Shown here piece by piece: positions 54,511 through 60,045 of a stretch of 64,000 nt of DNA (within the stretch, counting starts at the first letter, position 1; each line of letters starts with the position of its first letter). Position numbers and translations under genes: made by a program. The DNA comes from Geothrix limicola (GTDB taxonomy: Bacteria > Acidobacteriota > Holophagae > Holophagales > Holophagaceae). The stretch is taken from contig NZ_BSDE01000001.1 of assembly GCF_030268085.1 (NCBI RefSeq), positions 744,001 to 808,000 of the forward strand. Direction: 5' to 3'. A model generated the notes under the pieces. The model searched no databases and was not told the origin of the DNA. It saw nothing but the letters and a program-made list of their open reading frames with translations.

Positions 54511-57500
54511 CTAGCTGCAGCCCGTGGTCGCGCCGCAGGTCTGGCACTTCATGCAGGCGCCGTTGCGCACCAGGGTGAGGTGGCCGCATTCGGGGCAAGG
54601 ATCGCCGGTGTAGCCCTTCTCGCGGGCGGCCTGCGCGGCCGATACCGTGGCCTTGGCTCCGGACACACCTACCAGCACGGGAACCGGGGCGTCTTCCTGG
54701 GCGGGCGCGCCCGTCATGGAACCCTCGGGGAAGGGCAGGGGCGTGCCCGTGGGCAGGGCCGGCATGGCAGCGCCAGCCTGGCTCGCGGGGCGCAGGCCCG
54801 TGGCGGCGTTCACGATCTGCTCGGGTTCCACATGGGCCAGGTCGTAGCGGCCCAGGTAGCTGATGGCCAGTTCGCGGAACACGAAGTCGATGATGCTGGT
54901 GCTCATCTTGATCGTGTCGCTGCCCATGACCATGCCGCCGGGTTCGAAGCGGGTGAAGAGGAAGGCGTCGCAGAACTCTTCCAGGGGCACGCCGTGCTGG
55001 AGGCCCATGCTCACGGCGATGGCGAAGCAGTTGAGCACGGCGCGGAAGGCGGCGCCCTCCTTGTGGATGTCGAGGAAGATCTCGCCGAGGCTGCCGTCCT
55101 CGTATTCGCCGGTGCGCAGGTAGAGCTTGGTGCCGCCCACGGTGGCCGATTGCGTGTAGCCGCCTCGGCGGTTGGGCATGCGGCGCCGGTAGGTGCGCAC
55201 CAGCTGCTGCGCCAATTGCTGAGTCATCGCCTGGGCCACCGCAGGGGCCTTCTCGGTGGCGGTGGCCGATTCATCCATCAGGGTGTCGGCGCCGTCCAGC
55301 AGGTCGAGGTTGGTGGCCATGGCCTGGCTCATCTTCGAACCGTCGCGGTAGAGCGCCACGGCCTTGAGCATGAGCTGCCAGCTGGCCTCGTAGATGCCGC
55401 CGATCTCGTTGACGGTGGCTTCCGCAGGCAGGTTGATGGTCTTGCTGATGGCGCCACTGAGGAAGGGTTGGGCGGCGCCCATCATCTTCAGGTGGCCCAT
55501 GGGCGCGATGTAGCGCTTGCCCGTGCGGCCGCAGCGGTTGGCGCAATCGAAGATGGGCAGGTGCTCATCCTTGAGGTGCGGCGCGCCTTCCACGGTCATG
55601 GTACCGCTGAGGGCCAGCATGAAGGTCTCCACCTGCTCGGGGCTGAAGTCCCGCTTCAGACGTTCGACGTCGATGGCGTAGGCGGGATCGAAGGCGGTGG
55701 GGAGCTTCTGCTCCACGAGGGAGATCTCCTCGTCGTCCCAGCCGTGGGCCTTCAGCATCGAGCGGGTGATGCCGGGCGTTTCGTCGGTGATCTGCAGCCA
55801 GCCCACCACGTGGCGCTCGATGTCGTGGATCTGGCTGGGCGAGTAGCCCAGGCGGGCCAGGGCCTCGGGGATGGCGCGGTTCACGAGCTTGAAGTAGCCG
55901 CCGCCGGCGAGCTTCTTGAACTTCACGAGGGCGAAGTCGGGCTCGACGCCGGTGGTGTCGCAATCCATCAGCAGGCCGATGGTGCCCGTGGGCGCCAGCA
56001 CGGTCACCTGGGCGTTGCGGAAGCCCCACTGCTCGCCGTAGGTGAGAGCCGTGTCCCAGCTTTCGCGGGCCGCATCGGTGATGCGCTTGGGCACGCCCGC
56101 GCCGTGCAGGCCCTGGGGCCGGATGGAGAGCTGTTCGTATTCAGAAGCAGGGGCATTGTAGGCCGCGCGGCGGTGGTTGCGGATGACGCGCAGCATGTGC
56201 TGGGCGTTCTTCTGGTAGCCGGGGAAGGGCCCCAGTTCGCGAGCCATCTCGGCGCTGGCGGCGTAGGCGTCGCCCGTGAGGATGGCGGTGAGGGAGGCGC
56301 ACCACTGGGTGCCTTCCACGCTGTCGTAGGGGATGCCCATGCGCATGAGCATGGCGCCGAGGTTGGCGTAGCCCAGGCCCAGGGTGCGGAAGTCGTAGCT
56401 GAGCTTGGCGATGGCTTCGCTGGGGAACTGCGCCATCAGCACGCTGATCTCGAGGACGATGGTCCAGAGGCGGATGCCGTGGCGGTAGCCCGCGAGGTCG
56501 AAGCCGCCGTCTTCCGTGAGGAAGGTGCAGAGGTTCAGCGAGGCCAGGTTGCAGGCCGTGTCATCCAGGAACATGTATTCGGAGCAGGGGTTGCTCGCGT
56601 TGATGGGGCCGTCTTCGGGGCAGGTGTGCCAGTCGTTGATGGTGGTGTTGAACTGGATGCCGGGGTCCGCGCAGGCCCAGGCGGCGCGGTTCACCTTCTC
56701 CCAGAGATCCTTGGCGCGGAGCTTCTTGCTCGTCTTGCCGTCGATGCGGCGCTTGAGCTCCCAGTCGCCGTCCATCTCCAGGGCGCGCATGAAGGCATCG
56801 GGCACGCGCACGGAGTTGTTGGAGTTCATGCCGCCGACGGTGAGGTAGCCCTCGCCGTCCCAGGACGTGTCGTAGCCCGCGAGATCGCGGAGGAAATCGC
56901 CTTCGGCCAGGCGGCCCAGGCACTGGGTCAGGAACGCGGCGGGCACGCCCTCGCGCTTGGCGCGGGCGAGGGCCTTGCGTAGGGCCTCGTTGGTCTTGGG
57001 GTCGGCATCCTTGGAGGTGGAGCCTTCCACGGTCTTGCAGATGGCGTCCCAGTGGCGGCGCAGCATGGCGCTGCCGGCGGCCATCATGGCGACCTTGCGC
57101 TCTTCCGTGACCTTCCAGTCGACGAAGGCTTCGATATCGGGGTGATCCAGGTCGAGGCAGACCATCTTCGCGGCGCGGCGTGTGGTGCCGCCGCTCTTGA
57201 TGGCGCCCGCGGCGCGGTCGCCCACGGCGAGGAAGCTCATCAGACCCGAGCTGCGACCGCCGCCCGAAAGGGGCTCTTCTGAGCCGCGCACCTTGGAGAA
57301 GTTGGTGCCCGTGCCGGATCCGTACTTGAAGATGCGGGCTTCGCGGGTCCACAGGTCCATGATGCCGCCCTCGTTGACGAGGTCGTCGGTCACGCTCTGG
57401 ATGAAGCAGGCATGGGGCTGGGGACGCTCGTAGGCCGAGGTGGACTTCTTCATCTCGCCGGTCCTGGGATCGACGTAGCTGTGGCCCTGGGCCGGGCCGG

Positions 57501-57909
57501 AGATGCCGTAGGCGTAGTGCAGGCCCGTGTTGAACCACTGCGGCGAATTGGGCGCGCACATCTGGTTGGCGAGCATGTAGGTGAGCTCGTCGTAGAAGGC
57601 CTGGGCATCCTCGGCGGCGTCGAAGTAGCCGTGGGTCTCGCCCCAGTGCCGCCAGCAGCCCGCCAGCCGGTGGAAGACCTGGCGCGAGTCCTTCTCGCCG
57701 CCGTTCTGGGCGTCGATGCCCTTATGGCGGAAGTACTTCTGGGCCAGGATGTCCACGGCCACCTGGGACCAGGTCTCCGGCACCATCACATCCTTGGCCT
57801 CGAAGACGACGGTGCCGTCGAGCTTGGAGATGCGGCTGGTGCGCGGAACGAAAGGAATCCCTTCCAAGGGGTCGTGACCTGCCTTGGTGAAATGGCGGGC
57901 GATCTTCAT
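54511..57909 (-). CDS. nrdJ: Adenosylcobalamin-dependent (class II) ribonucleotide reductase
   Basis: Makes deoxynucleotides from ribonucleotides with B12 as radical source and without oxygen. The 1132-residue protein has [48 protein letters not shown], the active-site [20 protein letters not shown], the [18 protein letters not shown] block (as [20 protein letters not shown]), and a C-terminal Cys-rich tail with CPECGH and CMKCQTCG, which re-reduces the active site. No intein is visible. The start at 57909 has AGGA upstream; the open frame to 58212 is unsupported. A good promoter is at 58039-58067. No nrdA/B or nrdD genes are in the window. Confidence 0.97.
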
Positions 57910-58038
57910 GTGACTGTCCTGTGGGCAGTGGGTGGAAAGGACGGGCTCGAAAGAAATGGCTTTCCGTGAGGCGCACAAAGCTCTCCCCGGGGGGTGGGGA
58001 AGTTTGAAGCTGACCTCTATGGGTTGTGCCGGGAGAAA

Positions 58039-58067: not shown

Positions 58068-58182
58068 GGGGCCTGGAGCGGATTTTTCCGCAGATTAAAA
58101 ACCTCGCAGAAATAAGGGACTTTGAGTGCCAGTGCCGCTTGGCGAAGGGTCCTTCCGCTGGCGTTGCAGGGAGGATCGCGGC

Positions 58183-58188: not shown

Positions 58189-58196
58189 GGATTCAA

Positions 58197-58288
58197 GCCG
58201 GGCCCCATGCATCGGGGTGCGATGAACCGGGTCAGGTCGGAAGAAGCAGCCCTAAGTCGTTCCCCCGAGTGCCGTGGTAAGCCCGGCC
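58197..58288 (+). ncRNA. ffs: Signal recognition particle RNA, small bacterial (4.5S) type
   Basis: The conserved domain IV is unmistakable: GGTCAGGTCGGAAGAAGCAG, with the GGAA-like tetraloop region and the AGCAG asymmetric loop bound by Ffh. The outer stem GCCGGGC (58197-58203) pairs with GCCCGGC (58281-58287), giving about 92 nt, normal for the short form. The RNA targets ribosomes to the membrane with Ffh and FtsY. Its 3' arm (CGTGGTAAGCCCGGCCCC) is also the first 18 nt of a downstream repeat unit, so the true 3' end may be set by that hairpin. Confidence 0.95.
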
Positions 58289-58600
58289 CCTTTTCGGGGC
58301 CAGGCTTACCATCCGTTCGCGCGGCGCCTTCGGCTTGCGCTCACGGGTCGGCACTGGCATACGCTTCCAGTGGGTCCCCGCTCCGCAGAGCCCCCCAGGC
58401 TCTGCTCCGCGACCCACTTAGGTCGCGCACGTGGTAAGCCCGGCCCCTTTCGGGGCCAGGCTTACCATCGATCGGCCTGCGCCTTCGGCTTGGCCTCTCG
58501 AATCGGCACTGGCATGCGCTCTGCGCCGGAGCCCGACTCCGCAGGCTCCGCGGGAGCCTGCTCCATCACCCGGCGGTCGCGCACGTGGTGAGCCCGGCCC
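58271..58600. repeat. Structured tandem repeat downstream of the SRP RNA (two units plus a partial third)
   Basis: CGTGGTAAGCCCGGCCCC begins units at 58273, 58430 and, as CGTGGTGAGCCCGGCCC, at 58584. Each full unit (about 155 bp) has hairpin A (58276-58310; 58433-58466), the conserved GCGCCTTCGGCTTG and CGGCACTGGCAT blocks, then hairpin B: AGTGGGTC/GACCCACT with inner CAGAGCC/GGCTCTG (58369-58418) in unit 1, and GCCGG/CCGGC with inner GCAGGCTCC/GGAGCCTGC (58525-58574) in unit 2. The B stems differ in sequence but keep their pairing. Hairpin A has a T-G pair only on the minus strand, with a GAAA loop in unit 2. No protein is convincing here. Confidence 0.75.
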
Positions 58601-58630: not shown

Positions 58631-59503
58631 CTACCTCGGAATCCGCGCAGCGGATTCTGAGCCCGCCCGGCACACGGAATACAAGGGGCAGGCCGCGCAG
58701 GTGCTGCGTTTGCGGATGCCGGGGCAGTCGCCTAGGATGCCCAGGTGGCTAAGGGCGAAGTCGTAGCGGAGGGGATCCACGGGATCCAGGCGGCGGAGGG
58801 ATTCGGTGATCTCGAGGGCCATTTTCCCGTCAGGCGTCGTGCGACGGCTGAGGCCGATGAAGTGTGAGACCCGCGCCACATGCGTATCCAGCGGGATGAC
58901 CAGTTGATCGGCCGGGTAGCGGGTCCAGAGCCCGAGGTCGGGCCAACCCGAGCGCACCATCCAGCGCAGGAACATGCGCCAGCGCTTGCAGGCCGCGCCT
59001 TCCAGGGGATCGGGCAGGGAGAAACGGGATCCGTACGAAGCGGGCAGGTCCGTGCGCAGGCGCTGCACCAGGCGCGAGAGCGCGTCATCGGGCCCTTCTC
59101 CGGCCCGGGGCAGGAGGTGGGATTCCAGGCCCTGGCCGCTTTCCGCATCGAGCTGCTTCCAGGCCAGCAGCCAGGCGATGAGGTCGGCGGCCGTGTGGAA
59201 GCGCCAGGCCCAGGTGGACAGGGCCCGGGAGAGCTCCCTGCGGATGGCGGCCCCGCTTCGCGTGCGAAGCCAGTCCGCGGGGCTGGAGCCCAGGGGTGCC
59301 AGCGCGACGCGCACGGCGCGGATCATGGGATCCACGCGGCCATAGGCCAGGTGGGCCGCCACGAAGGCGGCGACTTCCCGGTTCATGGGGGAGTCATAGG
59401 CGAGCACGACGCTGAAGGGATCCTTTTCGAGGGCCTCGGCGGTGTCGTAGCGGGCGCAAAGCCCGTCCAGCCGCGTTTTAAGAGTAGAGACCGAGGTTCC
59501 CAT
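58631..59503 (-). CDS. TIGR02757 (DUF2400) protein with HhH-GPD-like iron-sulfur motif
   Basis: A 290-residue protein of the TIGR02757 family. It has VAAFVAAHLAYGRVDPMIRA near residue 45, WRMFLRWMVR and PLDTHVARVSHFIGLSRR, which resembles the helix-hairpin-helix/Asp loop of base-excision glycosylases. The C-terminus has four Cys (260, 269, 272, 278; C-x8-C-x2-C-x5-C) like the endonuclease III iron-sulfur loop. A DNA-repair role is suggested but not shown for the family. TGAGG precedes ATG 59503; the frame continues upstream without support. It stands divergent to the 59644 gene. Confidence 0.87.
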   Translation of the reverse strand: MGTSVSTLKTRLDGLCARYDTAEALEKDPFSVVLAYDSPMNREVAAFVAAHLAYGRVDPMIRAVRVALAPLGSSPADWLRTRSGAAIRRELSRALSTWAWRFHTAADLIAWLLAWKQLDAESGQGLESHLLPRAGEGPDDALSRLVQRLRTDLPASYGSRFSLPDPLEGAACKRWRMFLRWMVRSGWPDLGLWTRYPADQLVIPLDTHVARVSHFIGLSRRTTPDGKMALEITESLRRLDPVDPLRYDFALSHLGILGDCPGIRKRSTCAACPLYSVCRAGSESAARIPR

Positions 59504-59594
59504 GGCCTCAGTGTCCCAGGAGGGAGGGACCTCCGTACTTCGAAAAAACCGCACCTCGTGCCGAAAATCACTATGTAAGCAAAGGTATTGCCGG

Positions 59595-59600
59595 TAGTCT
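59595..59600 (+). promoter_or_regulatory. Minus-10-like hexamer for the 59644 gene
   Basis: TAGTCT, 44 bp before ATG 59644; the leader carries GGAGAAA as ribosome site. Confidence 0.4.
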
Positions 59601-59643
59601 GATGAGCGGTGGCCCGTGGCCCCCTTCGGAGAAATAACCGCAC

Positions 59644-60045
59644 ATGATGAACCTGCGTGGCCTTGGCAACCTGGCGAAGATCCTTGAAGAAGCCGCAAAG
59701 CCTGATTCCGTGTTGCGGGAAGACCGCGAAAAGCCGAAGCCCAAGGTTCTCAAAAAGGGAGAGAAGGCCGGGAATGTCCGGACCATCGATCCCAAGCGGA
59801 AGGTCTGGTACGAAAAGCGCCTGAAGGAAATCACCGCGAAGAGCCCGGCCCCCGAAGGCTCGGCCTCCGGTCCCGTGAGCGCCCCCGTGGTTCCCGCCGC
59901 GCCCGCCCTGGCCAAGAATGTGGCCTCCAAGCTGGGCGGTTCGCTGCTGCAGACCCTGGCCGCCGCCAAGGACGCGAAGCCCAAGGCCGATGGCCAGAAG
60001 CGCTCCGAAGCCTGGCGCCGCAAGCCCGGTGAATCGATCTTCTAA
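59644..60045 (+). CDS. Lysine-rich hypothetical protein
   Basis: A 133-residue basic protein. The N-terminus MNLRGLGNLAKILEEAAKPD is followed by a Lys/Pro region (REKPKPKVLKKGEKAGNVRT), an Ala/Pro linker and a Lys/Arg-rich end (AKPKADGQKRSEAWRRKPGE). It looks disordered and may bind nucleic acid or acidic proteins. No domain is known to me. Start ATG 59644 (or 59647) follows a purine-rich GGAGAAATAA. It is closed by a strong terminator. Coding status is supported by normal codon use and this flanking architecture. Confidence 0.65.
   Translation: MMNLRGLGNLAKILEEAAKPDSVLREDREKPKPKVLKKGEKAGNVRTIDPKRKVWYEKRLKEITAKSPAPEGSASGPVSAPVVPAAPALAKNVASKLGGSLLQTLAAAKDAKPKADGQKRSEAWRRKPGESIF

Follow-up and report, generated by a model that had tools for sequence, protein, structure and literature searches.

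A GC-rich palindromic DNA element, probably mobile and YPAL-like, at gene 3' ends in Geothrix and its relatives

Introduction

What is known of small palindromic elements comes mainly from a few bacterial groups, and borrowed transposases or RAYTs are believed to move them. Integrative elements, in turn, use attachment sites in the 3' ends of tRNA, tmRNA and protein genes, with reconstitution of attL and attR. The Geothrix element described here is similar in that a gene 3' end is duplicated and the gene restored, with synonymous differences between the copies, as is familiar from att sites; it differs in that neither an integrase-coding element nor cargo lies between the duplicates and in that the same hairpin is found at many genes. 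Integron attC sites are imperfect hairpins with a bulge and an internal loop, and carry the core RYYYAAC/GTTRRRY. The Geothrix element is built likewise and, again like attC sites, can stand in arrays; no such core is present in its consensus or terminal stems, and no gene cassettes were seen.

The YPAL/RU-2 elements of Yersinia are ~168 bp long, produce target duplications of 3-26 bp and insert by regions of dyad symmetry, a property counted here as shared with the Geothrix element (PMC2229807). Both are small, palindromic and non-autonomous, are not A+T-rich, lack TA termini, and show duplications of variable length and empty as well as filled sites (PMC2229807). The Geothrix element is distinguished by its 63-65 bp core, by duplications of up to ~150 bp of gene end and by a basal stem linked to stop codons. 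Judged by described features, not by sequence, YPAL/RU-2 would be the closest described element type. REP/BIME sequences with RAYTs are also short, dispersed, imperfect palindromes outside genes that sometimes form arrays (PMC3733652, PMC2817692). Unlike these, the Geothrix element duplicates its target, and 42 of 47 genus genomes are without a Y1 transposase; no GTAG or CGTC tag of the REP type was seen by eye at the ends of the element copies listed. A REP/RAYT reading was rejected on the near absence of this transposase. The palindromic elements of Rickettsia (105-146 bp) are often fused in frame within genes and can, with some likeness to the Geothrix element, lie inside genes and RNA genes (PMC2229807), whereas the latter is found mostly at gene ends. 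By the features tested, the element is neither a REP/RAYT sequence nor an attC site, and the hairpin called element B below is not an intrinsic terminator.

The Acidobacteriota family presented here combines strong covarying structure with a marked preference for gene 3' ends, that of an essential RNA gene included. No report of it in Geothrix was found in the literature, coverage of which was incomplete.

Tandem units at the 3' end of ffs

The window, the whole 64,000-nucleotide stretch of Geothrix limicola DNA that was analysed, contains the SRP RNA gene ffs on the + strand (58196-58291), and a match to Rfam RF00169 of 66 bits, against a gathering score of 40, identifies it as a bacterial small SRP RNA. 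Its neighbours are both on the minus strand, one at 58631-59698, the other at 54511-58000 and, judged from its translation, resembling a B12-dependent ribonucleotide reductase. The duplicated target is the 3' end of ffs. The last bases of the gene, CGTGGTAAGCCCGGCCC, occur at 58273 and recur twice further on, unaltered at 58430 and with a single change at 58584, at spacings of 157 and 154 bp, as had been described in an initial annotation of a ~155 bp repeat starting in the ffs 3' end. These direct repeats define two units on the + strand (58273-58429, 157 bp, and 58430-58583, 154 bp). Both begin with the ffs 3' end, the original in the first and its duplicate in the second, and continue with hairpin A, then a middle hairpin, then element B1 or B2, respectively. 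The order is gene end, linker (arm of hairpin A, middle hairpin, GGCACTGGCATACGC), hairpin B and duplicate gene end.

Hairpin A has no assigned strand. In the first unit (58275-58311) it is formed by the ffs 3' end itself (58275-58290) pairing with an inverted copy at 58296-58311, the 16-bp arms being 94% complementary; direct comparison of the repeats bore out the claim that it is almost identical in the second unit (58432-58467). It is specific to this locus, is kept in most genus genomes and shows compensatory change at two positions. The better pairing on the minus strand noted earlier holds genus-wide, with 28 C-A/A-C cells against 5 G-T/T-G cells, a count that stems from few independent positions and proves nothing about transcription. 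The middle hairpins, also without strand, lie at 58314-58346 (fold and repeat D1) and 58469-58500 (repeat D1). Element B1 (58364-58428, + strand) belongs to the CAGTGGGTC...GACCCACTT subtype, scores 71.5 bits with covariance model R1 and is supported by its fold; its basal stem pairs TACGC (58360-58364) with GCGCA (58425-58429). Element B2 (58520-58582, + strand; model R1, 78 bits; fold) is of the GCCGG...CCGGC subtype, with a TGCGC/GCGCA basal stem. Directly repeated ffs 3' ends on the + strand stand at the right ends of both elements, one at 58430-58446 behind B1 and a second, diverged one at 58584-58600 behind B2.

The ffs 3' end is indeed a site of insertion and duplication, as first proposed, but this description is too narrow, the same element being present at several other genes (see below). 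An inverted CGGCACTGGCA does exist at 58127-58137; upstream of ffs it is present in one of 32 ffs loci, that of this genome. Since it is missing from the other 31, it is probably due to chance, and it was rejected as part of the element. The arrangement at ffs could have arisen by two insertions, or by one insertion followed by tandem amplification, with later divergence or exchange of subtypes, giving [ffs end - A - middle hairpin - B] x 2 - ffs end.

A dispersed family in Geothrix and relatives

When the ffs repeat was searched against its own genome, extra copies of hairpin B were found and none of hairpin A. Model R1, built from six copies, detected 12 element copies in this genome at E < 0.001. 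The covariance-model search of related genomes suggested in the initial annotation found homologues in 45 of 47 Geothrix genomes, and the element is present in five of the 11 genera of the family, i.e. four besides Geothrix; part of these genomes are drafts and metagenome bins. An exact 25-base pattern searched in a named genome collection had its matches in Geothrix, in Holophagaceae and in a single 'Acidobacteria' record, and nowhere else. Viral contigs gave no exact match to one 25-base element pattern, and among plasmids no similar DNA was found. The two versions in the window, B1 and B2, represent separate subtypes of a single dispersed, nested palindrome of ~65 bp.

Head-to-tail arrays with a period of 71-72 bp (loci L102, L125 and L136) count in favour of a mobile family and, like the multi-unit loci among the ffs loci examined, would also fit immobile repeats that are duplicated in tandem where replication slips at a stable hairpin. 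However, the same hairpin family lies at unrelated genes genome-wide, copies whose dispersal already disfavours slippage, and some sites are empty of the element altogether, so that this explanation is very unlikely.

Covariation and the case for a DNA palindrome

Folded in isolation, B1 reaches z = -5.3 and B2 only z = -1.3, which makes the family alignment the convincing test of pairing in hairpin B. An alignment of 122 copies, 115 of them distinct, has 95.6% of its cells paired; the figure falls to 80.1% after shuffling and to 30-48% with the partner slid. Double-sided changes numbered 278 cells against 60 in shuffles, and compensatory types are present in all three helices. The terminal stems read GCCGGGT/ACCCGGC or AGTGGGT/ACCCACT. 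The alignment was fitted to the covariance model, which favours structure; despite this, covariation is convincing by effect size and by the compensatory types in three helices, and it upholds the compensatory pairing originally noticed between two copies of hairpin B. A basal stem outside the model co-varies as well (TTCCC/GGGA, TTCGC/GCGA, TAACC/GGTTA, TGACC/GGTCA, TACGC/GCGCA and others), its positions 2-4 being paired in ~70% of distinct sequences, where 24-34% would be expected; the observed figure is inflated because the register was picked for maximal pairing.

Whether this structure acts as RNA or DNA can be addressed through its mismatches. A functional RNA should tolerate G-U on its own strand, yet G-T and A-C cells are equally frequent (43 and 44) and favour an RNA on neither strand. 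It is therefore more likely that the element is a DNA palindrome and that the hairpin acts as DNA. A structured RNA was rejected for both strands on this count, and the suggestion that the antisense RNA is the working one finds no support. The broader proposal of a structured RNA element or repeat family stands as regards a structured repeat family, but not as regards a functional RNA, and no Rfam family matches hairpin A or B above the gathering score. Element B also lacks the U-run directly 3' of the hairpin that an intrinsic terminator would have, because the duplicate or a gene end abuts the hairpin.

Siting at gene 3' ends

Of 118 copies, 96 lie beside a gene 3' end as called with a simple codon-composition gene finder; random positions drawn from these loci do so in 13% of cases. 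In one orientation, most copies stand 9-43 nt downstream of the stop codon. In the other, ~30 copies, classed by eye from tables, have the stop codon of an opposite-strand gene at the hairpin base, within the basal stem. Sites include the 3' ends of ffs, hppD, tdh, glnS and an acetyltransferase gene (the four protein-coding genes named from their protein sequences), and positions near tRNA-His.

Siting at gene ends, strong covariation and, in most genomes, a hairpin A that pairs with the ffs 3' end would all be in keeping with a functional 3' UTR RNA under selection, acting as a transcription terminator, an RNA stabiliser or a small RNA. This reading is nevertheless unlikely, given the lack of a G-U preference on either strand and the absent U-run described above, the occurrence of both orientations at gene ends and the variation of occupancy of a given gene between species.

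Gene-end duplications and a possible route of insertion

Here, U denotes the sequence upstream of the element, usually a gene 3' end, and D its duplicate at the right end of the hairpin. In ~30 non-arrayed copies (counted by eye from tables), D abuts the hairpin on its right, is 14 to ~150 nt long and usually corresponds to the end of the upstream gene; most of these adjacent D copies begin exactly where the hairpin ends. U/D match scores reach 131, whereas the best score with shuffled flanks was 12. U and D are separated by nothing but the linker and hairpin. The majority of non-arrayed copies, chiefly those in the opposite orientation, show no detectable duplication, and for most of the duplicate-less copies tested a search over ~17 kb turned up no distant U copy. 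The idea that the hairpin bounds larger islands was rejected, distant U copies being unconvincing and only short near ones being seen.

The clearest case is hppD, where an empty locus (L206) and a filled one (L196) share the same downstream gene and differ by an inserted 82-bp element with a 38-bp direct duplication; L206 matches L196 across positions 1-90 and then once more from 53 on. The ffs locus is laid out in this way too. The element has two features of a MITE-like, non-autonomous palindromic mobile element of the YPAL type: it is a dispersed palindrome <200 bp, and it shows target duplication and empty/filled sites at hppD, duplications not being present at all copies. The dispersed family, its covariation and gene-end siting, the duplications and this one clean filled/empty comparison suggest that the element itself moves. 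Hairpin B is probably a GC-rich, non-autonomous, YPAL-like palindromic mobile DNA element of Geothrix and its relatives that inserts at gene 3' ends, the mobile unit being the 63-65 bp core plus the left linker. With the gene's last 14-150 bp duplicated at its right end, the upstream gene would stay intact, so that unusually long duplications are borne without loss of the gene. Recurrence of these genes as sites in different species may in part reflect common descent, with sites inherited and not newly hit.

How the duplicate arises could be read in two ways. The element may cut its target with a long stagger and thereby duplicate host sequence. At hppD, U and D differ less within a genome (2.4 differences) than between genomes (4.4; permutation p 5e-5), as expected from this, and four U/D pairs are identical, species-specific codons included. 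Alternatively, the mobile unit may carry the gene end as an address and recombine into the matching gene, homologously or site-specifically, so that the end of the gene is replaced and the native end pushed behind the hairpin, much as integrative elements in gene 3' ends reconstitute attL and attR. Such a cassette (gene 3' end, linker, hairpin) would be a sub-case of mobility and overlaps with the preferred explanation; it is a possible but tentative reading. U/D codon differences in type 1 hppD copies are mostly synonymous (19 against 3 non-synonymous, where neutral decay of D would give ~45% synonymous, a rough estimate from 29% synonymous opportunity), and the pooled set is biased too. This excess hints that gene ends may have been exchanged along with the element, although a synonymous bias would also follow if the functional gene underwent homologous exchange afterwards. 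The cassette is also favoured by hppD U copies, which often end CTG-stop-TCCTCC whereas D ends like native genes, by several hppD hairpin types, each with its own D start and sometimes in series (L197, L212), and by tandem [gene end - hairpin] units at L103, L197 and ffs. Against it are the identical U and D in several genomes, the smaller U-D distance within genomes and the lack of a larger parent element within ~17 kb of duplicate-less copies. A more specific version is more doubtful still: a miniature cassette of gene-end 'address', linker and recombinogenic DNA hairpin that moves between Geothrix species and restores the 3' end of the same gene through a new enzyme or the host recombination machinery.

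The search for the moving enzyme covered two families, Y1 and RVT_1, and identified none. The Y1 (RAYT) transposase is present in five of 47 genus genomes and a reverse transcriptase in 22 of 77 family genomes; neither tracks copy number, and the reverse transcriptase was rejected as the mover. The many natural filled and empty sites provide material for working out the insertion mechanism.

Related hairpins and unusual sites

Other modules were seen at the same gene ends. In the ffs 3' flank of L029, L035, L037 and L039, a different repeat module (CCTTTTACGTCAAGCGCG...AGTAAAAGGAATCGCCGCAGCC...) replaces hairpin A after the SRP RNA. The 3' flank of hppD carries a second hairpin type (GCGCTCCCTATCGGAGGCTCC...GGAGCCTCCGATGGCCGGTCGC) in L197, L199, L201, L218 and L224, followed by a copy of hppD sequence from further upstream that starts CCATGGGCTTCGGCGAGGGC; in L197, it stands in series with a B-type element. 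A third, diverged type that folds in much the same way (GTGCGGGGCCCC...GACCCGC and the like) lies in the hppD 3' flank of L212 and L215 and also at L089:1275, L119:540, L140:783 and L169:615; model R1 matches it weakly in several loci. With this third type, the family probably amounts to a superfamily.

Near tRNA-His (L135, L137 and L175), a 3' fragment of the tRNA lies at the right end of the hairpin, inverted with respect to the intact tRNA-His across its terminator, and L175 holds several such inverted fragments. Ordinary att sites were rejected here, the adjoining fragment being an inverted copy across the tRNA terminator and not a simple att repeat. At L113:706-768 and L123:707-769, the hairpin seems, by eye, to be in frame with the N-terminus of a sodium-dependent-transporter-like gene (HRDDFGSRLG...), as if it provided a new start.
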